In this document: positions 636 through 13,352 of the stretch, one piece after another | Numbering within the stretch: position 1 is the stretch's first letter | How the letters are laid out: each line of letters begins with the position of its first letter | NCBI GenBank assembly: GCA_903821905.1 | Contig: CAIJMQ010000115.1 | Location: 1-13,503, forward strand | DNA: 13,503 bases | Source: an uncultured bacterium | GTDB lineage: Bacteria; CAIJMQ01 | Direction of reading: 5' to 3' | The notes under the pieces: model-generated | The model's database searches: none | Told to the model about the DNA's origin: nothing | The model's input: only the letters and a program-made list of their open reading frames with translations | Program-made: the position numbers and the translations under genes

Positions 636-1262
636 CTATTTTCCTATGATTTCAACAGTTTTCCCTTTTACTTTCAATTGTCCATTTTGAAAGAGATATA
701 TTGCTTTTATAATAACTCTTTGCTCAGCTTCCTGAACCTTTTCTTTAAGAGACTGGGGGGTATCGTTTCCTTCCACTTTAACTGACTCTTGTAGAACAAT
801 AGGTCCCGTATCAGTACCCTCGTCGATAAAATGCAGGGTACAGCCAGTGACTTTTCTCCCTTGTTCTATCACTAACTTGTGAACATTTAAGTCCATACCT
901 CCAGCAAAAGCAGGAAGAAGAGAAGGATGAATATTCATGATTCTGTATTTAAATCTGCTGACAAAATATGGGGATAAAATTCTCATATAACCAAGAAGTA
1001 GAATCAGGTCTATTTTTTTCTCGTCCAGTTTTTCGATTACCTTTTTGTCAAAATCTTCCCTATCTTTAAAATCCTTAGGATTAATATAAATAGCGGGAAT
1101 TTTATGGTTCTTTGCCCTTTCCAGAATATATGCATCTTTCTTGTCAGAGATTACTATTTCAATGTGGGCGTTCAATTTTCCTTTTAGTATAGCCGTAGCT
1201 ACTCCCTCCATATCCGTACCCCTGGTAGAACCCAAAATAGCAATGCGTATTTTCTGAGTCAT
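636..1262 (-). CDS. purN: Phosphoribosylglycinamide formyltransferase (GART)
   Basis: A 208-residue protein, normal length for PurN, which formylates GAR with 10-formyl-tetrahydrofolate in de novo purine synthesis. The catalytic residues are readable: N110 and H112 in MNIHPSLLPAF, and D151 in DEGTDTGPIVLQ. LLLGYMRILSPYF at 88-100 is the folate-pocket strand and loop. The N-terminal phosphate loop is GSTRGTDMEGV rather than the common GSGSN form, so this belongs to a variant subgroup. The start is supported by GAGG at 1269-1272 and a good promoter at 1283-1311. It is followed by rimI on the same strand. No other purine genes are in the window. Confidence 0.95.
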   Translation of the reverse strand: MTQKIRIAILGSTRGTDMEGVATAILKGKLNAHIEIVISDKKDAYILERAKNHKIPAIYINPKDFKDREDFDKKVIEKLDEKKIDLILLLGYMRILSPYFVSRFKYRIMNIHPSLLPAFAGGMDLNVHKLVIEQGRKVTGCTLHFIDEGTDTGPIVLQESVKVEGNDTPQSLKEKVQEAEQRVIIKAIYLFQNGQLKVKGKTVEIIGK

Positions 1263-2840: not shown

Positions 2841-2869
2841 ATATTAACAAATAAATTTTAGAATGTAAA
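2841..2869 (-). promoter_or_regulatory. Candidate promoter for the SPOR gene, very short leader
   Basis: On the minus strand TTTACA (2869-2864, 5 of 6), a 17-nt spacer and TAATAT (2846-2841, 4 of 6). The -10 ends 14 nt before the ATG, so the leader would be about 7 nt and has no Shine-Dalgarno. Read-through from the DUF4416 gene is the alternative. Confidence 0.4.
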
Positions 2870-2872
2870 TCC

Positions 2873-3397
2873 CTAATTAGATAACTGTTTTCTATAGATT
2901 CCTCTTATCGTGTTGAAAACATCTATAGAAGTATCTATTTTATAGTCTGGATATGTCCAAGATAATTGCTGGAAACTCCTTCCCTTGAAAAATAGTGTAA
3001 CTTCCGCATAAATTCCTTTGCCTACATAGATTCTATGATAGTAATCCTTAGTAGATGCCAATACAAGTTTGGAATTATCGATATATCCAGAGTCTATATT
3101 CACTATTCGTTTATCTTTATTAGAGTATTTACCCTCTAATTTATTAGTAAAAAGTTTAATTGAATTAAGCTTCCCCGGGTCTATCAAATCCTTGAAGCTT
3201 ATGAATTTTTTCTTCAAGTTAAAACCCATTTCTTCCTGATAATAATCGGTATGATTAAAACCAAATACAGGACCTTTGCAATCAATTTTACCGTATTGTT
3301 TTTCAAGCACTATTTCTATTTCTGGAAAAAGTTCTAAATTACCAGTGAAAATGGCCATAATTAATTTTACAGGTAAAGGAGATTTTATTTTTCCCAT
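2873..3397 (-). CDS. DUF4416 family protein
   Basis: A 174-residue soluble protein with the DUF4416 pattern: an N-terminal KLIMAIFTGN segment at 12-21, then a conserved central region containing FNHTDYYQEEMGFNLKKKFISF (reported in pieces: FNHTDYYQEEMGF at 47-59), and a C-terminal block with YVGKGIYAEVTLFF and WTYPDYK. The family is about this length and is found in diverse bacteria, including Planctomycetes-like and uncultivated lineages. Its biochemical function is not established, and I do not assign one. It is divergent from rpmB and followed by the SPOR gene. It has no Shine-Dalgarno, and a TATAAA box ends 9 nt before the ATG, so the message may be leaderless. Confidence 0.85.
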   Translation of the reverse strand: MGKIKSPLPVKLIMAIFTGNLELFPEIEIVLEKQYGKIDCKGPVFGFNHTDYYQEEMGFNLKKKFISFKDLIDPGKLNSIKLFTNKLEGKYSNKDKRIVNIDSGYIDNSKLVLASTKDYYHRIYVGKGIYAEVTLFFKGRSFQQLSWTYPDYKIDTSIDVFNTIRGIYRKQLSN

Positions 3398-3406
3398 AGG
3401 ATTAAT

Positions 3407-3434
3407 TTTATATAAAACTTGAAAAAATTTGCAA
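3407..3434 (-). promoter_or_regulatory. Promoter for the DUF4416 gene, predicted near-leaderless
   Basis: On the minus strand TTGCAA (3434-3429, 4 of 6), a 16-nt spacer and TATAAA (3412-3407, 5 of 6). Nine nucleotides separate the -10 from the ATG at 3397. TTGCAA is its own reverse complement and is also the -35 read for rpmB on the other strand. Confidence 0.5.
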
Positions 3435-3457
3435 ATAGCTACTGAATATCATATAAT
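3429..3457 (+). promoter_or_regulatory. Promoter for rpmB, predicted near-leaderless
   Basis: TTGCAA (3429-3434, 4 of 6), exactly 17 nt, and a perfect TATAAT (3452-3457). Nine nucleotides (3458-3466) separate the -10 from the ATG, leaving no room for a Shine-Dalgarno; the bases there are pyrimidine-rich. The predicted message begins 0-3 nt before the start codon. Confidence 0.65.
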
Positions 3458-3466
3458 TTCCCTCAA

Positions 3467-3658
3467 ATGTCCAGAATATGTGAAATATGTGGAAAGGGTC
3501 CTGTAACTGGTAACCGTGTTAGCCACTCTAATAGACACACAAAAAGAAGATGGCTGCCTAATCTGCAATATGTAAGAGCAATAACCAAAGAAGGTGCAAA
3601 GAGAATCCGGGTTTGCACGTCTTGTATCCGTTCCAATAAAGTCAAAAAAGCAGCTTGA
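3467..3658 (+). CDS. rpmB: 50S ribosomal protein L28, four-cysteine form
   Basis: A 63-residue L28 of the large ribosomal subunit. It begins [16 protein letters not shown], the standard L28 start, which confirms the ATG at 3467. C5, C8, C50 and C53 form two CxxC pairs, so this is the zinc-binding (C+) version; many bacteria also carry a cysteine-free copy induced under zinc limitation, which cannot be checked here. [11 protein letters not shown] in the middle and the basic tail fit the family. It is divergent from the DUF4416 gene and convergent with dapA, whose stop lies only 26 nt away, with no terminator visible between. It lacks a Shine-Dalgarno and is predicted to be translated from a leaderless mRNA. 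Confidence 0.98.
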
Positions 3659-3684
3659 TAATCATTAAATCCTGATAGAAATAT

Positions 3685-4554
3685 CTAAATCAATTTCAAA
3701 TCTTTTAGTATTCTAACCAGTTTCTCTTTGCTTTCATCTCCCATTCTACAAAGAGGCAATCTTAAGTTTGGCTGAATTTTACCCATTAGAGCAAGAGATT
3801 CTTTTACCGGGATAGGATTCGTTTCATAGAACAGAGCTTCGAATAGAGGATATAGTTCATAATGAATTTCCCTCGCTTCTTCAAGTTTACCTTCTTTGAA
3901 ATTGTGAACAAGGTCGTGTATTTTCCTGGGAACCACATTGGCAACCACAGAAATAACGCCTTTACCACCAACAGAAAGAATGGGTAAAGTTACCGAATCA
4001 TTGCCCGAAAGAACCGTTATGTCACAAAGTGAAATTATTTTGCTTACCTGGTCAAGTGATGGATTGGCTTCTTTTACAGCAACTATATTTCGAATTTTGG
4101 AAAGTTTCGCTATTGTCTCAGGTAGCATATTCGTACCTGTACGGGAAGGCACATTATAAAGAATAATCGGTATATCCACCTCTTCAGCTATTTTCTGATA
4201 ATGTAGAAACTGTCCTTTAGGTGTAGGTTTATTGTAATAAGGTGTTATTAGTAATGCGGCATCTGCACCTGCTTTTTTTGCAAAAGAGGTCAAATCGAGC
4301 GCTTCTTCGGTAGAATTAGACCCAGCCCCAGCTATAACGGGAACTCTTCCTTTGACTTTACCAACAACGAATTCTATGATTTTTTTCTGTTCTTCATGTT
4401 TCAATGTAGCGGCTTCGCCGGTACAACCGCATGGCACTATACCATCTGTTTTTTCTTGAATGTGAAACTCAATTAAATTGTCTAAAGTTTTGAAATCAAT
4501 ATTACCATTTTTATCAAAAGGAGTAACTAACGCTACACTTGAACCTTCAAACAT
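3685..4554 (-). CDS. dapA: 4-hydroxy-tetrahydrodipicolinate synthase
   Basis: A 289-residue TIM-barrel aldolase condensing pyruvate with aspartate semialdehyde, the first committed step of the diaminopimelate/lysine pathway. Numbering matches E. coli DapA: Schiff-base K161 in IVAVKEAN, Y133 in ILYNVPSRTG, R138 and Y107 in TPYYNKP. At position 44, where DapA normally has Thr in GTTGE, this protein has Cys (GCTGE), while T45 is kept. The C-terminal ETNPIPVKESLALMG is typical of true DapA rather than N-acetylneuraminate lyase. GGAGGG lies just upstream of the ATG. It has its own promoter inside the 3' end of gspF and a leader of about 60 nt with a hairpin. Confidence 0.93.
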   Translation of the reverse strand: MFEGSSVALVTPFDKNGNIDFKTLDNLIEFHIQEKTDGIVPCGCTGEAATLKHEEQKKIIEFVVGKVKGRVPVIAGAGSNSTEEALDLTSFAKKAGADAALLITPYYNKPTPKGQFLHYQKIAEEVDIPIILYNVPSRTGTNMLPETIAKLSKIRNIVAVKEANPSLDQVSKIISLCDITVLSGNDSVTLPILSVGGKGVISVVANVVPRKIHDLVHNFKEGKLEEAREIHYELYPLFEALFYETNPIPVKESLALMGKIQPNLRLPLCRMGDESKEKLVRILKDLKLI

Positions 4555-4576
4555 TTTTCCCTCCGTATTTAACGAT

Positions 4577-4601
4577 GGACGACTCTTTTCTTCTTTCGTC
4601 C
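4577..4601 (-). promoter_or_regulatory. Hairpin in the dapA leader
   Basis: GGACGA (4577-4582) and TCGTCC (4596-4601) form a perfect 6-bp stem around a 13-nt purine-rich loop on the minus strand. It lies in the 67-nt gap between gspF and dapA, inside the predicted dapA leader. It has no following T-run, so it is not an intrinsic terminator; it does not resemble the large lysine riboswitch either. Function unknown. Confidence 0.3.
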
Positions 4602-4620
4602 CTCGTATAATCTGTGAGTT

Positions 4621-4650
4621 ATTATAGCCCGATTAATTGATTCATTTCAA
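4621..4650 (-). promoter_or_regulatory. Promoter for dapA overlapping the end of gspF
   Basis: On the minus strand TTGAAA (4650-4645, 5 of 6), 18 nt, and a perfect TATAAT (4626-4621). It starts within the last codons of gspF. Predicted start is near 4614, 60 nt before the dapA ATG. It suggests dapA can be expressed apart from the secretion operon. Confidence 0.55.
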
Positions 4651-5833
4651 ATATAGGCAGGAGAATTGAAACAGCAATAACACCAACTATAAGACCCATT
4701 GTGATTATAACAAGGGGTTCAAGAAGAGTAGTAAATCTATTTAAAGCCATTGTCACTTCTTCTTCATAACTTATCGATATATCATCCAGCATTTGTTCTA
4801 AATTACCACTTTTCTCCCCTACTTCTATCATATGTAAAAAAAGAGGCGGGAAAACACCACTTCTTCTTAAAGCTTTACTCATACTATCTCCCTTGGAAAT
4901 ATCTTCTTTTGCTTGATTTATGGCCATTGATATGACCTCATTTCTAATTGCATCTTTTGCAAGCTCAAGAGAGGTGATAATTGTAACTCCTCCTTTTCTA
5001 AGGGTAGATAAAGTCCTGGCAAAATTTGCAACGAGTGATTTCCTCATAATTTCTCCAATAATAGGAAGTTTTAGTTTTAATTGGTCTATCTTATATCTGG
5101 CTCTCTTTATATGAAGAACCCAGAAAAATGTTACTATTACTACCCCTACACCACATAAAAGTATAATCCAGTAATGTCTTAAAAAAGTAGAAAATCTAAT
5201 TAAAGCTAAAGTTAGAGGCGGTAAAGTTCTATTCATCTGTTCAAATAAACTGGAAAGATTAGGGACTACAACTACAAGAAGAAAAACAAGTACGCCAAGA
5301 CTCACAAAGCCCACCACCATAGGATATGTTAGTGCATTTCTAATTTTATTGCGCAAACTAATACTTTCCCTTATCAAAGCTGAAATTCTAAAAAGGATAT
5401 CAGGTAGACTTCCCGTTTCTTCACCACTCTTTACCATATTTATATAAATCGACGAAAAAACTCTACTAAACAAAGAAAGAGCTTCTCCAAATGATTTACC
5501 TTCTTTGACGGATTCTGCCAAACCAAAAACTACTTTTCTAAAATGGTGGGAACTAGTTTGTTCTGCTATAGCATTCAAACTGGCTAGAAGTGTAAGCCCT
5601 CCTTTTAATAAACTGGCAAGCTGATGAGTAAAAAGTGAAATGTCTTCATTGCTTGTCCTTCGAAAAGACAGAAATTGATGTGATGAAGAAGCTTGAGTTA
5701 TAGCGCTTACATTAATCGGGAAAAGAGACTGTTCTCGTAATTTATCTCTTGCTTCCTCCACTGATGACGCATCTATTACTCCCTTAGATTCCCTGCCATT
5801 TTTATTTAAAGCCCTGTATTCAAATACTGCCAT
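4622..5833 (-). CDS. gspF: Type II secretion inner-membrane platform protein
   Basis: A 403-residue GspF/PilC-family protein of normal length. It begins with the typical AVFEYRALNKNGRESKGVIDA and contains two copies of the T2SSF domain (about 65-190 and 268-390), each with the family signature, SGEETGSLP in the first and VGEKSGNLEQML in the second. Three membrane segments are visible at about 170-192, 218-242 and 372-398. It sits in the inner membrane and binds the ATPase GspE to drive pseudopilus assembly. It is the last gene of the dxr-gspCDEF run, 43 nt after gspE. There is no Shine-Dalgarno and no promoter-like box near the ATG, so translation probably depends on the upstream gene. Among GspF, PilC and related paralogues, GspF is favoured by the gspC and gspD neighbours. 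Confidence 0.93.
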   Translation of the reverse strand: MAVFEYRALNKNGRESKGVIDASSVEEARDKLREQSLFPINVSAITQASSSHQFLSFRRTSNEDISLFTHQLASLLKGGLTLLASLNAIAEQTSSHHFRKVVFGLAESVKEGKSFGEALSLFSRVFSSIYINMVKSGEETGSLPDILFRISALIRESISLRNKIRNALTYPMVVGFVSLGVLVFLLVVVVPNLSSLFEQMNRTLPPLTLALIRFSTFLRHYWIILLCGVGVVIVTFFWVLHIKRARYKIDQLKLKLPIIGEIMRKSLVANFARTLSTLRKGGVTIITSLELAKDAIRNEVISMAINQAKEDISKGDSMSKALRRSGVFPPLFLHMIEVGEKSGNLEQMLDDISISYEEEVTMALNRFTTLLEPLVIITMGLIVGVIAVSILLPIFEMNQLIGL

Positions 5834-5876
5834 GATAGTTAACCAGTAATACGGTTAGAGAGTTAATCCGCCCACT

Positions 5877-7577
5877 TTAATCCATTATTTCTTGCGTTTC
5901 ACTCAAAATTTCAGATAAGGTTGTGATACCATTACATACCTTTTTTATCCCATCACCCCTCAAAGTACGCATGCCTTTCTTCTTTGCTTCATTCCTGATA
6001 GCACGGGATGACTTCTTGTCTATTATCATTTTCTCAATCTCTTCTTTAATCAGTAAAACCTCAAATATGCCTATTCTTCCTGAATATCCCTCATGACAAT
6101 ATGAACAACCTTTACCTTTGTATAATTTTTCAGGTAGCTCTTCAATTTTTATGCCTAGTTTCTCAAGTTCTAAAATATCATCTGATTTTTTGTCTAAAAT
6201 GTAATCGGTTTTACAATGTGGACATATTTTTCTCACAAGCCTTTGAGCTATTATTGCCCTAACAGACGAAGTTAGAAGATAAGGCTCTACTCCCATATCT
6301 ATAAGTCTTGTGATGGTTCCTGCTGTATCATTTGTGTGAATAGTAGAAAAAACCAGGTGTCCTGTCAAAGAAGCTCTTATAGCAATATCTACAGTATCTA
6401 AATCTCTCATCTCACCTACCATTATGATATCGGGGTCGTGTCGAAGTATAGAGCGCAAGCCATTAGCAAATGTTAGGTTTATTTCCGGTTTAACCTGAAT
6501 CTGAGCAATGCCCGGCAATTGATATTCTATTGGGTCCTCAACGGTTATTATGTTCTTATCAGGAGAATTTATTCTAGAAAGCGCAGCGTATAAAGTAGTC
6601 GTTTTCCCCGAACCTGTAGGCCCGCTAACTAAAATAATGCCGTTGGATATATGAATTAAACCGTCAACAATTTTGTATATTTCTTCATCTAATCCCAATT
6701 CTCCTAAATCAATAAGATTTGCTCTGTCCAGTAATCTTAAAACAACCCTCTCCCCACCGGCTACCGGAATTACAGATACTCTGATATCAATTTCTTTGTC
6801 TCCGGATTTTATATTGAATCTGCCGTCTTGCGGTAATCTCCTCTCTGCAATATTCAATCCTGACATAACTTTAATTCTGGATACAATCGCTGCATGATAG
6901 GATTTGGGAGGAGTCAATGTATCATATAAAACACCATCTATGCGATATCTTATCCGTAGTTTCCCGGGTAATGGTTCTACGTGGATATCGCTGGCTTTCT
7001 TTTCTATAGCCTGGAACATCATAAGATTAACAAGTTTAATTACCGGGGCTTTATTAGCAAGGTCTAATAGATCTTCCGCCCTTTCGTCCCTTGTAAATAT
7101 AGGTACATTATCTTTCATCTCTTTCATAACCTCTTCTGTAGAGCCTGATTCCGGCCTGTATAATTTTTCCAGATTATTAAGAATTTCCTTCTCGGAAGCC
7201 AGCGCCAATTTAATTTTATACCCACTGATACTGGCAAGTTCCCCGGTAGACGGCAAATTCATCGGGTCTGAAGTTGCTATTGTAAGTGTATCTTTATTTA
7301 TTTCTACCGGTAGAAGTTTATAGTTTTTAAGAATTTTGATAGGAAGAGTTTTAAGGATAGATTCTTCTATACCATCCAAAGAAATCTGTGAAATGAATGG
7401 TATAGACAATATCTTACTTAAGAATTTTAGAAATGCATCTTCAGTTATATATCCTTCTTTGATAAGGATTTTATCAAGGCGTTCGTTCTTTTGTTTGGAA
7501 AGCTCTATAGATTTTTTTAAATCTTCTTCTTTGATAAGTTCTTCTTTAAGGAGTAACTGACTAATATCAAATTCCAT
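5877..7577 (-). CDS. gspE: Type II secretion assembly ATPase
   Basis: A 566-residue GspE/PilB ATPase that powers pseudopilus assembly from the cytoplasmic face. An N-terminal T2SSE_N/MshEN-like domain occupies about 1-145. The ATPase core has Walker A GPTGSGKTT (319-327), the Asp box TVEDPIEYQLPG (345-356), Walker B DIIMVGEMRD (383-392) and the His box TGHLVFSTIHTND (405-417). A tetracysteine zinc motif (C452, C455, C491, C494) is intact; it is found in GspE and PilB but absent from PilT retraction ATPases. The ATG lies one base after the gspD stop (TGAAATG), implying translational coupling. No Shine-Dalgarno. The gspC/gspD context favours GspE over PilB. Confidence 0.95.
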   Translation of the reverse strand: MEFDISQLLLKEELIKEEDLKKSIELSKQKNERLDKILIKEGYITEDAFLKFLSKILSIPFISQISLDGIEESILKTLPIKILKNYKLLPVEINKDTLTIATSDPMNLPSTGELASISGYKIKLALASEKEILNNLEKLYRPESGSTEEVMKEMKDNVPIFTRDERAEDLLDLANKAPVIKLVNLMMFQAIEKKASDIHVEPLPGKLRIRYRIDGVLYDTLTPPKSYHAAIVSRIKVMSGLNIAERRLPQDGRFNIKSGDKEIDIRVSVIPVAGGERVVLRLLDRANLIDLGELGLDEEIYKIVDGLIHISNGIILVSGPTGSGKTTTLYAALSRINSPDKNIITVEDPIEYQLPGIAQIQVKPEINLTFANGLRSILRHDPDIIMVGEMRDLDTVDIAIRASLTGHLVFSTIHTNDTAGTITRLIDMGVEPYLLTSSVRAIIAQRLVRKICPHCKTDYILDKKSDDILELEKLGIKIEELPEKLYKGKGCSYCHEGYSGRIGIFEVLLIKEEIEKMIIDKKSSRAIRNEAKKKGMRTLRGDGIKKVCNGITTLSEILSETQEIMD

Positions 7578-7578
7578 T

Positions 7579-9513
7579 TCACTTGATTGTCTGCTCTGTT
7601 TTGAATTTATTCTGCAGTTCTTCTTTCTGGCGTGTCAATTCTTCTATTTTTGCTTTTTCTCTTATAATATATGGAGTGATGAATACAAGAAGATTTCTTC
7701 TTTCGATAGTATCTTCTTTTCTTTGAAATAATAGTCCTAATAAAGGTATGTCTCCCAAAAGCGGAACCTTATGTAAAACTTTGGTGCTATCGTCTCTTAT
7801 GAGTCCGCCTATAACAATTGTAGAGCCATCATCTACCGATATGTTTGTTTTCGTTTCTCTTACCGTCGTAGAAGGCGTTGTTGTCGTAGCTGACGCTCCC
7901 GGGGCAATCGCTGTAACTTTCTGGTGTATATCGAGTCTCAGATTATCTTCCGTTCCTATGTGTGGTGTTATTGTCAATTCTATGCCCACATCCTTGTATT
8001 CATAGCTGCTGACCACAGTATCCTGTTCTGTGATACGAGAGGAGGTTAAATAAGGCACGTTCTCGCCAACCATTATTCGAGCCTCTTTGTTATCCAAAGT
8101 AAGTATTTGAGGAGTAGACAAAATATTGAATCCTGTTCTTTTACTATAAGCCTGTATAATCATTCCTACATTGGGAATTCCGTTGGTTGTGCCCTTCAGG
8201 GCACCTACAACAAGACCGGAGAACGTCAGACCTCTTTGGAAAAGAGTTGTTTGGTCAGTACTGTATTTTGTTCCTGCAAAACCTGTAACTTCACCCTCTA
8301 TGGGTTTATCTAAGGTACCCCATTCAATGCCCATATCCGTTATCACATCCATAGACACATCGGCAATTAACGCCTCCACAAGCACTTGAGGCCTTACTGT
8401 ATCAAGCTGGTCTATTACTTCTTTGAGGTGATTATAATCTTCCGGTTCTGCAGTAATAATCAAAGAACGGGTAGCTACATCCGCGCTAATATTGGTAGTA
8501 GTATTTGCTGCTCCTTTTTCCTTTGTTTGCCCTCCCAATGGCATAGCAGATAGTATTTTAGCCAATTCTTCCGCATCAGCATATTTTAATTTATAAATAT
8601 GTATGGTTTCCCTACCAGGAGGAGGTAGAATATCTAACTGTGCAATCAGGTCTTTCACTTTCAAAGTGTCGTCTTTATTAGCTATCAGAATAATAGAATT
8701 TATACGTTCATCCGGGATAAGTGTAACTTGTCCGCCGCTATTCATAGGAAGAGTGGTAGGAGTCCCACCTCTTACTGTTCTTGTCGGAGTAACTGTTGCT
8801 GTTCTTCCGGCACTTTCTATCGCACCGCTAACTTTTTCGGCAATCTCTGTAGCAGAAGCATATTTCAAAGCAATAATAGAAGTTTCTAATTTTGAACCCT
8901 CAATATCAAAATTATTTATTATAGTTAAAAGTTTACGTATATTTGAAGATAAATCAGTTAGGATTAGAGTATTTGTAGGAGAGTAAGAAGTTAAAAACCC
9001 CTGCTGAGAGATAAGCGGTGAAAGTATAGGAAGAAGCTGTTGGCTATCTGCATACTGCAGAGGAATTAACTGTGTTATCATTTTGTCTTCAAAGGTAATT
9101 TGTGAAATATCTTTACCTATTCCTGTAGGTAGTGACGACTGTTTAGCATTTGCAGATGGGATTATTTTTACAACTCTTCCTGAAGGGATTGTAGTAAACC
9201 CCTTAACATCAAGAACAGACATGAATACTTGATTTACTTCCCCCACCGGGATTTTTGTAGGAGATATGATAGTCACAGTACCTTTAACTCTGTCATCAAG
9301 AAGGAAATTTTGACCCGTAACTTTCGACACGAAATTTGTGACTACCCTTAAATCAACATCCTCAAAATTTATAGAGATTAACCCTTCCCCGCCTGCTCCT
9401 ACTTGGTCTGTGTCGGCAGTTTGGCTAAAAACCATGCAGACAAAAAATACAGAAAATAAAACCATAGAAAGGATAAATCCCTGTAATCGACTTTTTTTAA
9501 TCTGCATAATCAT
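7579..9513 (-). CDS. gspD: Type II secretion outer-membrane secretin
   Basis: A 644-residue GspD that forms the outer-membrane channel. A signal peptide covers about 1-31 (basic start, then ILSMVLFSVFFVCMVFSQ). Then follow N0 (about 47-118, ISINFEDVDLRVV), N1 (145-203), N2 (210-294), N3 (303-372) and the secretin barrel (about 375-616), with VPYLTS, the GIELTITPHI strand and VPLLGDIPLLGLLF. The Gly/Thr-rich insert in N2 (about 235-260) and the Thr-rich one near 540-550 are typical variable loops. The tail (617-644) is a short charged helix, and no obvious pilotin-binding S-domain or lipobox is seen. A second ATG two codons later is an alternative start. The gap from gspC is 7 nt and there is no Shine-Dalgarno. 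Confidence 0.95.
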   Translation of the reverse strand: MIMQIKKSRLQGFILSMVLFSVFFVCMVFSQTADTDQVGAGGEGLISINFEDVDLRVVTNFVSKVTGQNFLLDDRVKGTVTIISPTKIPVGEVNQVFMSVLDVKGFTTIPSGRVVKIIPSANAKQSSLPTGIGKDISQITFEDKMITQLIPLQYADSQQLLPILSPLISQQGFLTSYSPTNTLILTDLSSNIRKLLTIINNFDIEGSKLETSIIALKYASATEIAEKVSGAIESAGRTATVTPTRTVRGGTPTTLPMNSGGQVTLIPDERINSIILIANKDDTLKVKDLIAQLDILPPPGRETIHIYKLKYADAEELAKILSAMPLGGQTKEKGAANTTTNISADVATRSLIITAEPEDYNHLKEVIDQLDTVRPQVLVEALIADVSMDVITDMGIEWGTLDKPIEGEVTGFAGTKYSTDQTTLFQRGLTFSGLVVGALKGTTNGIPNVGMIIQAYSKRTGFNILSTPQILTLDNKEARIMVGENVPYLTSSRITEQDTVVSSYEYKDVGIELTITPHIGTEDNLRLDIHQKVTAIAPGASATTTTPSTTVRETKTNISVDDGSTIVIGGLIRDDSTKVLHKVPLLGDIPLLGLLFQRKEDTIERRNLLVFITPYIIREKAKIEELTRQKEELQNKFKTEQTIK

Positions 9514-9520
9514 AAATTTG

Positions 9521-10372
9521 TTATTTTATATCATAAGTTAAAGTTTCTGTTGAATCACCTCTATCAACCTCTAACTGTATAGCCGAAGATTTTGATAAAT
9601 TTCTATAAACATCGAAAATTTTCTTGGGGCTATCTATAACTTCACCGTTGATTTTCCTTACAACATCTCCTTTTTTAATCCCTAAAGTAGAAATCATACT
9701 TCCTTCTTTAATATCATCTATTGCGAAACCGTCTATTTTCCCCGAGGAAAAACGCGGTCTTACTTTTAAATCGGACATAATTTCGGAAATACTTTTTGTA
9801 GCATTCGCAATATCTTCCTTACTAACTACCCATTTGTTTGGTGCAGGATGTTCGACATCGGTAATATCAGGATATGTAGGTGGTTTATTAGCAACAACCT
9901 TTTCTTTATCCTTAACTGTGGTTTCTTCTTCGTCAATATATAAAACTATTTGTTCTGTGCCTCTTTTCAAAACCACACTATTTACAGTAATATCAGCAAC
10001 TTCCATGTCCTGTATTTTATCACCTTTTTGATAAAGGTCTTCTTTACGTTTGGTCTTATCCTCTATTATACAGAAAGTAAATTCTTTAACACCTACTACA
10101 GTGCCTTTTAATTTAAGCGCTAAAGTTTGGACAGAAGCCAAAGGTTTGGAAGCTTCATCTACATTAAACAGATTTCTCTTAGAAATCACCGAATAATCCG
10201 CAATATTCTTCTCGGATTTCTTAACATCTTGAGACGTAGCAATAGAAGAGGGAATATCAGCTTTATTTATTTCTTTACCGTAAGATTTAATAAAGAAAAA
10301 GACGTTAACCAATAGGAAAACAATCCCAGCAGATAGAAAAAAATTTAAATACTTAATCCAATCTCTTCTCAC
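9521..10372 (-). CDS. gspC: Type II secretion GspC-like protein with PDZ domain
   Basis: A 283-residue bitopic inner-membrane protein: membrane segment at about 9-28, the GspC-type SKRNLFN motif (64-70), a homology region at about 80-148 that in known systems binds the secretin N0 domain, a Pro-rich linker, and a C-terminal PDZ domain (about 196-283) containing GIKKGDVVRKINGEVID. It couples the inner-membrane platform to GspD across the periplasm. It starts at GTG (10372), overlapping the dxr stop by 4 nt (GTGA). There is no Shine-Dalgarno, but a perfect TATAAT ends 9 nt before the GTG, so it may also be made from a leaderless internal transcript. Sequence divergence is high, as usual for GspC, and the call rests on architecture and position. 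Confidence 0.85.
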   Translation of the reverse strand: MRRDWIKYLNFFLSAGIVFLLVNVFFFIKSYGKEINKADIPSSIATSQDVKKSEKNIADYSVISKRNLFNVDEASKPLASVQTLALKLKGTVVGVKEFTFCIIEDKTKRKEDLYQKGDKIQDMEVADITVNSVVLKRGTEQIVLYIDEEETTVKDKEKVVANKPPTYPDITDVEHPAPNKWVVSKEDIANATKSISEIMSDLKVRPRFSSGKIDGFAIDDIKEGSMISTLGIKKGDVVRKINGEVIDSPKKIFDVYRNLSKSSAIQLEVDRGDSTETLTYDIK

Positions 10373-11520
10373 AGTTCTTCTATTATACTCTCAGCTTCTG
10401 TTCTTGCCCAGCTATCTGCTTCTAAAATATCCTTCCACCCGTGATTAAATTTAGGAGTGTGTCTTTTCATAACAGATTCTGCTACTTGCCAGATTTGCGG
10501 GAATGATATTTTGTCTTTTAAAAAAGTTTCCACAGCTACTTCATTAGAAGCATTAAGGACAGCGGGCATAGTCCCTCCGGTTCTACCGGCTGCATAAGCA
10601 AGCCTTAAAGGAGGAAATTTTTCTTCGTCTGGTTTTAAAAAAGTGAGATGCGAAATCTCATGTAAGTCTATCGGTTTAAATGCGCTTTGTGTCCTGTGGG
10701 GATAAGTCAGTACATATTTTATAGGGATTTTCATATCAGGATAAGCCAATATTGCTACCGTTATCCCGTCTATGAATTCTACCAGAGAATGAATTATAGC
10801 TTGGGGATGTATTACCACCTCGATTTTATCCCAGTCGATATTAAAGAGCCACTTTGCAGCAATAACTTCAAAGCCCTTATTCATTAATGTTGCAGAATCT
10901 ATTGTAATCTTTGAACCCATTTTCCATATCGGATGCGACAGCGCATTCTTCGCTTTTATAGAATCAAATTCTTTTTTGCTGTAGTTATAAAAAGGCCCAC
11001 CTGAAGCCGTAAGAATAATTTTATGGATTTCTTTCGGTTCGCTTTTTTCTATGCTCTGAAATATTGCGCAATGTTCACTATCCAATGGGAATATTCTCAC
11101 CTTTTTCTTCTTGGCTTCCTCCATAACCTCTTTGCCTGCGATTACAAGAACTTCCTTGGTGGAGAGTGCAATATCATTTCCACTTTTTATCGCTTCTAAT
11201 GTCGGCAATAGACCCGCAGAACCAACAACAGCGATAACAATCAAATCAACTTTTTTACCCGCAAGTTTCCTAAGCCCTTCCGCCCCAATAAAAACCTCTC
11301 CCACCAACCCTTTAAAATTTTTCCTGAATTGTTCACCTTTCTCTTCGTCAGCTATGGCAACCCACTTAGGATGAAATTTATCAACCTGTTCTTTCAAGAG
11401 TTCTATATTCCTGCGGGTACTCAAGCCGACAACTCTGAACTGGTCTTGTAACCCAGATACAACCTTTAAGGTATTTTGCCCGATTGAACCAGTAGAGCCA
11501 AGGATGGTAATTTCTTTCAT
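10369..11520 (-). CDS. dxr: 1-deoxy-D-xylulose 5-phosphate reductoisomerase
   Basis: A 383-residue Dxr, the NADPH-dependent second step of the MEP isoprenoid pathway. The nucleotide-binding loop is GSTGSIGQ at 8-15. Metal and substrate residues are present: K122, D147 and E149 (in LDSEH), S173 (in TASGGPF), H196, and S209, N214, K215 and E218 in KITIDSATLMNKGFEV. The flexible-loop region reads HPQAIIHS and LAYPDM where HPQS and G-x-PDM are more usual; both are mild variations. It is 24 nt downstream of rpmA and overlaps gspC by 4 nt. There is no Shine-Dalgarno upstream; the gap is only a TTTTTTAAAAAA run and ATATC. Confidence 0.96.
   Translation of the reverse strand: MKEITILGSTGSIGQNTLKVVSGLQDQFRVVGLSTRRNIELLKEQVDKFHPKWVAIADEEKGEQFRKNFKGLVGEVFIGAEGLRKLAGKKVDLIVIAVVGSAGLLPTLEAIKSGNDIALSTKEVLVIAGKEVMEEAKKKKVRIFPLDSEHCAIFQSIEKSEPKEIHKIILTASGGPFYNYSKKEFDSIKAKNALSHPIWKMGSKITIDSATLMNKGFEVIAAKWLFNIDWDKIEVVIHPQAIIHSLVEFIDGITVAILAYPDMKIPIKYVLTYPHRTQSAFKPIDLHEISHLTFLKPDEEKFPPLRLAYAAGRTGGTMPAVLNASNEVAVETFLKDKISFPQIWQVAESVMKRHTPKFNHGWKDILEADSWARTEAESIIEEL
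10382..10410 (-). promoter_or_regulatory. Candidate internal promoter for gspC, predicted near-leaderless
   Basis: On the minus strand, inside the last codons of dxr: TGGGCA (10410-10405, 4 of 6), exactly 17 nt, and a perfect TATAAT (10387-10382). Nine nucleotides (10381-10373) separate the -10 from the GTG start of gspC. The same bases encode Ser-Ile-Ile in Dxr, so chance is possible. Confidence 0.45.
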
Positions 11521-11544
11521 GATATTTTTTAAAAAAGGGGGAAC

Positions 11545-11796
11545 TTAAGCGGTAACAACACTTACAAATTTCTTCTTTGTTCCTGTATATACAACTACAC
11601 CCTCAACTTTAGCAAAAATTGTATGGTCTGTGCCCATGCCAACATTTTTTCCAGGTTTAATCTTTGTCCCTCTCTGCCTTATAAGTATCTGCCCTGCTTT
11701 AACCTTTTCACCACCAAATTTTTTAATTCCAAGTCTTTTAGCTATTGAATCGCGACCTTGGTTTGTTACACTAGTACTACCTTTTTGCTGCGCCAT
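11545..11796 (-). CDS. rpmA: 50S ribosomal protein L27
   Basis: An 83-residue L27, which reaches the peptidyl-transferase centre with its N-terminal tail. It begins [17 protein letters not shown], lacking the cleavable N-terminal extension seen in Firmicutes, and contains [25 protein letters not shown] and the [13 protein letters not shown] core (positions about 20-70). AAGGAGG lies 8 nt upstream of the ATG, and a strong promoter precedes it. L27 genes usually sit beside rplU (L21) and obg; neither is present here, and instead rpmA heads the run into dxr and the type II secretion genes. Confidence 0.98.
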
Positions 11797-11824
11797 ATTA
11801 AAACCTCCTTAAATTGAGGGAGTA

Positions 11825-11853
11825 ATTATAATCCATAAAATATAATGAATCAA
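11825..11853 (-). promoter_or_regulatory. Promoter for the rpmA-dxr-gspCDEF operon
   Basis: On the minus strand TTGATT (11853-11848, 4 of 6), exactly 17 nt, and a perfect TATAAT (11830-11825). The -10 ends 28 nt before the rpmA ATG, leaving a leader of about 20 nt that carries the AAGGAGG Shine-Dalgarno. It is the strongest promoter upstream of the block. Confidence 0.65.
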
Positions 11854-11869
11854 GCATACGCAGATTACC

Positions 11870-13054
11870 CTATTCTACACTTACTATGCGAGCGTTATAT
11901 TTCAGCCAGAAGAGCGGAATAATAGATACCGAAGCTATTACACCGCTCAAAATAAAAGGATAATTTATTGAGTATTTGCTCACCCACCCTGCAAGTAAAG
12001 GCCCAAAAATCCATCCTAATCCGTGCCAGGAAAGCACCATCCCAACATCAAGCCCTCGACTTTCATTTCTTGCATAATGCTGAATAAGAGTATTCCGGGC
12101 AGGCTGCCATAAACTCGCTCCAACCAAATCGTGCATTAACCATATAACAGCTGCGGCGAGAAAATATGTAGGGATTGCAGTAAGAGCCATAAAAATCCCC
12201 TGGAGCAAAATAAAAATAATAGTGGTCATTTTCAAGTTCCACTTAACGACTTTTCCCGTAACAATCATAGGAATCCCAAAACTTAACCTGTGAAGAGCCA
12301 GAATCGCAGAAACCACTACAGGCGAAAGAGAAAACTTATGATAGAAAAATAGAGGCAACATAAAAGAATGGCTCATACTAACCCCTACTTCCATAATGAA
12401 ACCGGATATAGCCAGAAGAAACAAAGGATACGTCAAACGATGCCTGAAAGGAGAAGACCAGGAAAAAGACCTTGCAGTTGCCAAATCGCTGCTCGTTACA
12501 GAACCGTGGCTTCCAAAAGGAGTGAATTTCTCCTTAAACTTAAACATAAATAACATACACACCACAAACACAACCGTCCCGGAAAAAATAAATGAATATC
12601 GATATCCGACTTTTACCAGTAAAAATCCTCCGAGTATTGCGCCTATGCCCTGGAATGTAACATCAAAACCAGTTATCCATGCCGTAAGATGGCGGAACGA
12701 TTCCTTCCACTTATCAAAAATCAAAAGCTGTTGGAGCGTTTCCTTGATAGCATTTGAAGATTCCCGTAAAGACCTCAAGATAACTTGAGAGGAAACATAA
12801 GGGAAAAAAGGAGTACATAAATTAGCAACACTGGATAGGAAAAGAGACAGGGAAAAAATATGTTTCCTGCCGATAATATCCGAAATATGACCTGCATAAA
12901 TCCTGATAAAGAAAAGGAATATTGCAGAAAATGAAAAAATAATACCCATCTTTCCATATGACATCCCCATATGGTCTAAGAAGAGAGGCAGGAGTAAATC
13001 GTAGAGCCCAATGCTTAACCCAAAAGCCGCACTTACAATAATCAGCAAAACCAT
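11870..13054 (-). CDS. Major facilitator superfamily transporter
   Basis: A 394-residue polytopic protein with about 12 hydrophobic segments, the normal MFS length. The cytoplasmic loop between the second and third helices carries the MFS motif A as GHISDIIGRKH (55-65), a good match to G-x-L-a-D-r-x-G-R-k. A longer loop rich in Ser and charged residues sits near the middle (about 175-200), between the two six-helix halves. The substrate cannot be deduced; a drug/sugar/metabolite exporter type is as far as one can go. It lies upstream of rpmA on the same strand with a 73-nt gap that contains the rpmA promoter. It has no Shine-Dalgarno, and a TATAAA box ends 9 nt before the ATG. Confidence 0.9.
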   Translation of the reverse strand: MVLLIIVSAAFGLSIGLYDLLLPLFLDHMGMSYGKMGIIFSFSAIFLFFIRIYAGHISDIIGRKHIFSLSLFLSSVANLCTPFFPYVSSQVILRSLRESSNAIKETLQQLLIFDKWKESFRHLTAWITGFDVTFQGIGAILGGFLLVKVGYRYSFIFSGTVVFVVCMLFMFKFKEKFTPFGSHGSVTSSDLATARSFSWSSPFRHRLTYPLFLLAISGFIMEVGVSMSHSFMLPLFFYHKFSLSPVVVSAILALHRLSFGIPMIVTGKVVKWNLKMTTIIFILLQGIFMALTAIPTYFLAAAVIWLMHDLVGASLWQPARNTLIQHYARNESRGLDVGMVLSWHGLGWIFGPLLAGWVSKYSINYPFILSGVIASVSIIPLFWLKYNARIVSVE

Positions 13055-13063
13055 AGGTGGAAG

Positions 13064-13090
13064 TTTATAGGAAAAGGGAGATTTTGTAAA
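13064..13090 (-). promoter_or_regulatory. Candidate promoter for the MFS gene, predicted near-leaderless
   Basis: On the minus strand TTTACA (13090-13085, 5 of 6), a short 15-nt spacer, and TATAAA (13069-13064, 5 of 6). Nine nucleotides lie between the -10 and the ATG; they are pyrimidine-rich with no Shine-Dalgarno. The short spacer weakens the -35 call more than the -10. Confidence 0.4.
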
Positions 13091-13189: not shown

Positions 13190-13313
13190 CCTCTGGAATC
13201 TTGACCCTCTGCAATTTGAAAAATTGCGAGGACTAAAGTCCCGGGAACGCTTCGCATTCCACGGGGAAAGATTCCGAGGACTTAGTCCCGGAAATTCTTC
13301 GAATTTCTCGGGG
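13190..13313. repeat. Multi-hairpin palindromic element (REP/MITE-like)
   Basis: GC-rich inverted repeats in an AT-rich gap. The inner hairpin GCAATTT (13211-13217) pairs with AAATTGC (13221-13227). GGAATCTT (13195-13202) pairs with AAGATTCC (13268-13275), and both stems sit on a CCTC/GAGG base with a single bulged T. GGAA (13244-13247) pairs with TTCC (13257-13260), and GAAATTC (13291-13297) with GAATTTC (13301-13307), both on a CCCG/CGGG base with one bulged base. Two small palindromes, GGACTAAAGTCC (13230-13241) and GGACTTAGTCC (13278-13288), lie between. Loops are GAA or TTC. The repeated plan with different but self-paired stems indicates selection for structure. It starts 39 nt beyond the stop of the right-edge ORF on the minus strand, so it could also act as its terminator. 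Confidence 0.75.
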
Positions 13314-13352
13314 TTACTTCTCACTTTTTACTTTATTTTATTATCCTGTTCT

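Follow-up and report, generated by a model that had tools for sequence, protein, structure and literature searches.

Close -10 boxes at start codons lacking a Shine-Dalgarno sequence suggest a minority class of leaderless or short-leader genes in an uncultured bacterium

Leaderless genes preceded by a TATAAT-like signal (TA-led genes) have been described in 207 of 953 bacterial genomes; in Actinobacteria they make up about 20% of the genes, and in Deinococcus-Thermus the share is about 40% (Zheng et al., 2011; PMC3160421). In Deinococcus, a -10 motif adjoining the open reading frame (ORF) was tested experimentally, and is present 6–7 bp upstream of about 30% of the ORFs (PMC12340547). We analyzed a 13,503-nt stretch of DNA from an uncultured bacterium (the window), the genome to which it belongs (G000) and genomes of its relatives. 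As for the TA-led genes, a TATAAT-like signal is found close to the starts of a minority of genes that lack a Shine-Dalgarno sequence (SD), and the SD is still the main signal. The spacing differs, with a plateau of 6–15 nt here and a distance of about 6 nt (about 12 bp from the first T) in the TA-led genes. The likeness to Deinococcus-Thermus lies in a -10 next to the ORF, a leader that is absent or predicted to be very short and an optional -35, but the class there was tested by experiment, whereas the lower share here, about 4–13%, is estimated from sequence alone. In actinobacterial leaderless genes, for which Arthrobacter served as a control, the close box is likewise restricted to genes without an SD; it forms a sharp TANNNT peak at 6–7 nt, in contrast to the broad distribution here of an AT-rich form, TANAAT, often accompanied by a -35.

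The phenomenon itself is already known (Zheng et al., 2011); what appears to be new is the lineage, the broader spacing and the switching of modes by some orthologues. Our preferred reading, to which we assign a probability of about 80%, is that this lineage has two ways of starting translation, and that a minority of its genes, with a sigma70-type -10 against the start codon, are expressed from leaderless or ultra-short-leader mRNAs. This would extend such expression to another deep, sparsely sampled lineage, within whose class our search found only six relatives.

Boxes and start codons in the window

The original prediction was that rpmB, a DUF4416 gene, an MFS transporter gene and gspC lack an SD and have TATAAT or TATAAA ending exactly 9 nt before the start. 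Such boxes are present at that distance from the rpmB ATG (3467), the DUF4416 ATG (3397), the MFS ATG (13054) and the gspC GTG (10372). The absence of an SD was borne out for the first three genes, and gspC has only a weak G-rich triplet. The first two genes are divergent:

2873–3397, minus strand: DUF4416 gene; no SD; PF14385, E 6e-58
3405–3410, minus strand: TAAAAT, likely DUF4416 -10; ends 7 nt before the ATG; TAMAAT at 7 nt in four species
3429–3434, both strands: TTGCAA, palindromic; predicted -35 for rpmB (plus) and DUF4416 (minus)
3452–3457, plus strand: TATAAT, predicted rpmB -10; ends 9 nt before the ATG; TANAAT at the same spot in three species
3467–3658, plus strand: rpmB (ribosomal protein L28); no SD; PF00830, E 1.5e-22, from residue 3

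A promoter scan gave TTGCAA-17-TATAAT on the plus strand and TTGCAA-18-TAAAAT on the minus strand; G003 has the same arrangement. Comparison with three genomes of the same family (G001–G003) yielded the footprints TTGCAA-N17-TANAAT-N9-ATG for rpmB and TTGYAA-N17/18-TAMAAT-N7-ATG for DUF4416. The TATAAA at 3407–3412, 9 nt before the DUF4416 start, fits less well as its -10: G003 keeps it, but G001 and G002 have instead a TACAAT that ends at 7 nt, so that the conserved -10 of this gene probably ends 7 nt before the ATG. The start of rpmB in a sister family (f2; G004 and G006) is preceded by a G-rich, SD-like stretch.

The two genes lie 69 nt apart (window 3397–3467), and the single palindromic TTGCAA common to both predicted promoters would leave room for one polymerase at a time. 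This -35 is also common to both genes in G003; those in G002 appear to be separate.

For the MFS gene, the following features were identified:

11870–13054, minus strand: MFS transporter gene; no SD; PF07690, E 1.5e-31
13062–13067, minus strand: TAAACT, predicted MFS -10; ends 7 nt before the ATG; conserved in four species
13085–13090, minus strand: TTTACA, predicted MFS -35; conserved in four species with a 17-nt spacer

Its footprint across the window genome and G001–G003 is TTTACA-N17-TAAACT-N7-ATG. The TATAAA at 9 nt (13064–13069) reads TGTAAA in the three relatives and was discarded as the -10, an example of how scanning for TATAAT only can choose the wrong hexamer. The figure of exactly 9 nt is thus a product of scanning for TATAAW, as the conserved distances are 9 (rpmB), 7 (DUF4416) and 7 nt (MFS). 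On this comparison, all three genes qualify as members of the close-promoter class without an SD. Just upstream of the MFS gene (window 13195–13325), GGACT/CCCGGGAA text looks, by eye only, repeated and inverted.

The remaining boxes are less uniform:

2826, minus strand: ATG of the SPOR gene; no SD
2841–2846, minus strand: TAATAT, predicted SPOR gene -10; ends 14 nt before the ATG; absent from the original prediction
2864–2869, minus strand: TTTACA, predicted SPOR gene -35, in TTTACA-N17-TAATAT-N14-ATG
10382–10387, minus strand: TATAAT upstream of gspC, within the dxr codons AGT ATA ATA

The SPOR gene probably belongs to the close-promoter class; in G002 it is preceded by TTTACA-N17-TAACAT, 19 nt before the ATG. 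As a leaderless example gspC is poor: its box is coding sequence of dxr and the gene begins within the dxr stop in an RTGA overlap, which reads GTGA here and ATGA in relatives, so that translational coupling is the simpler reading and the box is probably not a leaderless promoter. Similarly, gspD has TAAAAT at 9 nt and TATAAA at 11 nt, both inside gspC codons.

The contrast genes were said to have an SD and boxes farther away:

636–1262, minus strand: purN; SD-led; TATAAA ends 17 nt before the ATG
3685–4554, minus strand: dapA; SD-led; TATAAT ends 66 nt before the ATG
11545–11796, minus strand: rpmA; SD-led; TATAAT ends 28 nt before the ATG

All three have an SD, and the distances for rpmA and dapA were recovered; the 20 nt given for purN applies only to TATTAT. 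A clean split within the window did not survive, with the SPOR gene, gspD, dxr, gspF and orf1839 as exceptions. A clear SD is lacking in 9 of the 14 genes examined: for rpmB, DUF4416 and MFS a close box lies in intergenic DNA, that of the SPOR gene is 14 nt away, those of gspC and gspD fall within codons of the preceding gene, and upstream of dxr, gspE and gspF neither an SD nor a close box was found. At 1800–1841 of the window, the start of orf1839 (122 aa, without a Pfam match) is preceded by TACAAT at 11 nt and also by a strong AGGAGG SD, and a transcript from that box would begin within the SD.

Genome-wide distribution of close boxes

From the 1.30-Mb genome we sampled 887 kb as stretches; the first set of contigs was picked for TATAATN9ATG matches, a slight bias that the later sets do not share. 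A simple codon-bias gene finder, which does not use homology, gave 716 genes with 626 ATG starts. With the same finder, the coding fraction was 0.80 in the window genome and 0.73 in G002 (loci L113–L130 and L153–L192).

An SD precedes 47% of the starts (background 18%). The 16S rRNA of the window genome was not recovered; that of G002 and G004 has a normal anti-SD tail, GGATCACCTCCTTTCT, and fits an ordinary SD as the dominant translation signal. An exact TATAAT ending 5–15 nt before the start was found for 24 of 334 starts without an SD, as against 3 of 292 SD-led starts (p 1e-4), and G002 gave a similar result (24/385 versus 3/271, p 0.001). At internal ATGs, non-start ATGs and SD genes, the frequency of the close box was near background.

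As AT-rich upstream DNA yields TATAAW by chance, and picking genes that lack an SD favors AT-rich words in that same upstream region, the signal could be compositional. Plain genome counts of TATAATN9ATG showed no excess over the reversed pattern (25 versus 22), presumably since most such words lie outside starts; the distance plot had no peak at exactly 9 nt, and at least one of the four boxes first noted, that of gspC, is coding sequence of the preceding gene. Against this, boxes were about five times less frequent among controls sorted in the same way, namely non-start intergenic ATGs without an SD (30/2218) and shuffles without an SD (75/4812; both p 1e-8 against the 24/334), so that the box frequency is not the same at such sites as at true starts. 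In addition, two AT-rich genomes of the SD type, Acetoanaerobium (GC 34%) and Fusobacterium (GC 27%), showed no close-box class with the same pipeline, and Arthrobacter gave a sharp peak, with 13 and 6 of 71 starts without an SD at 6 and 7 nt. The pipeline therefore neither invents the signal in AT-rich DNA nor misses a known one, and the breadth of the spacing here is probably not due to the gene finder alone. The chance explanation is already largely refuted, and we regard it as very improbable.

The original prediction expected a sharp peak at a fixed distance among starts without an SD; the excess is indeed confined to these starts, but its distances form a plateau from 6 to 15 nt. When a -35 is required as well (4 of 6 matches, spacer 16–18), the boxes of genes without an SD lie mostly at 6–10 nt; the -35 enrichment is modest (0.31 versus 0.10–0.20 at control spacers). 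Blind EM motif finding on the starts without an SD did not converge on a TATAAT -10. Genes without an SD show a trough at 16–18 nt; in SD genes, boxes are found at about 17–30 nt, and those with a -35 partner from about 17 nt upward.

This distribution is consistent with the preferred reading of leaderless or short-leader mRNAs. Genes of the class, mostly the first in their transcription unit, would be transcribed from a sigma70-type promoter, with 6–15 nt between the end of the -10 and the start codon. Transcription starts about 6–7 nt past a -10, so that gaps of 6–10 nt predict leaders of 0–4 nt; RNA polymerase would initiate at the A of the ATG or no more than about 9 nt from it. An SD requires roughly ten or more leader nucleotides, for which such mRNAs would have no room, and this would explain the mutual exclusion of the two classes, SD genes beginning where the gap from -10 to start reaches about 16–17 nt. 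The 70S ribosome with initiator tRNA would probably recognise the AUG near the 5′ end directly. The sequences show the two classes, where they lie and how they are conserved; where transcription begins and how the ribosome reads these messages are inferred, the latter from known leaderless systems.

Size, operon position and start codons of the class

For TANAAT at 6–15 nt, the excess was 48 sites (95% 35–64), or 7.7% of the starts, and for TANNNT 79 sites (54–105), or 12.6%; the corresponding values in G002 were 4.0 and 7.2%. The class is real, and about 4–13% of the genes are predicted to be leaderless or to have a leader under about 10 nt, but "widespread", as leaderless translation was first called, overstates this, as about half of the starts lack an SD and most of these have no close box and a start signal that the class does not explain.

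Among genes of the window genome without an SD, TATAAT at 5–15 nt occurs in 11.6% of those divergent from or at least 45 nt away from the preceding gene, versus 0.7% of those closer than 45 nt, a contrast that is weak in G002. The position of the class bears on the possibility that the close promoters, though genuine, play a secondary part, with the main transcripts coming from upstream and translation relying on unstructured, A-rich start regions or on coupling. The enrichment of A directly before all starts, the lack of a close box in most genes without an SD, and the location of gspC and gspD in an operon whose genes overlap or nearly do so speak for this. The concentration of the class, in the window genome, in genes divergent or distant from the preceding gene, and its conservation together with position, argue for leaderless or short-leader expression instead, and we consider secondary promoters unlikely.

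Where a -35 accompanies a -10 at 5–10 nt, the genes are mostly ordinary housekeeping ones, including LytB/IspH, SmpB, Cons_hypoth95 (RsmD-like), isocitrate/isopropylmalate dehydrogenase, a Tyr/Trp-type tRNA synthetase, ketoacyl-ACP synthase III and PilM. Counted over unambiguous starts, the class has 35 ATG codons, one TTG and no GTG. Some starts will be wrong, as they were picked by codon bias and not by homology, and close-box genes might then be ordinary leadered genes with a true start downstream behind an SD. A downstream in-frame start with an SD is nevertheless no more common in close-box than in SD genes (0.23 versus 0.30 in the window genome, 0.17 versus 0.29 in G002), the Pfam matches of several members, such as SmpB, LytB and Cons_hypoth95, begin at residues 1–5, and both the N-termini and the start positions are retained across species. 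Misplaced starts thus seem a most improbable source of the class. Gene-finding programs that insist on an SD may put starts in the wrong place in this lineage.

Conservation of the class and changes of mode between genera

The close-box class is conserved in G002, which represents a second genus of the same family. Strict in-register scoring of orthologue pairs was underpowered (16 observed versus 6.7 at score 8), and a windowed test was used instead. In 177 pairs of orthologues whose starts agree, TANAAT at 6–10 nt in the window genome predicts one in G002 (9/19 versus 4/158, odds ratio 35, p 1e-7). These pairs showed no association for TANAAT at 20–24 or 30–34 nt and a weak one at 40–44 nt resting on very few pairs; the retention of boxes in the close window only is a further argument against chance.

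Of 18 close-box genes without an SD in the window genome, 8 have a close box in G002, 6 have an SD and 4 fall in neither group. It is conceivable, though somewhat doubtful, that leaders of any length between 0 and about 9 nt are tolerated in this lineage, which would then not be strictly leaderless, and that orthologues flip between a close promoter without an SD and a longer leader with one between the two genera. If so, this evolutionary switch of initiation modes could be traced gene by gene, for which the conserved genes provide a set. In a SIS-domain gene (about L048:5660–6295), the -10 ends 7 nt before the ATG in the window genome, and its G002 orthologue has an SD and a more distant box. 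LytB/IspH (L048:7332–8150), with a close box and no SD in the window genome and an SD in G002, is likewise a candidate for a switch of mode.
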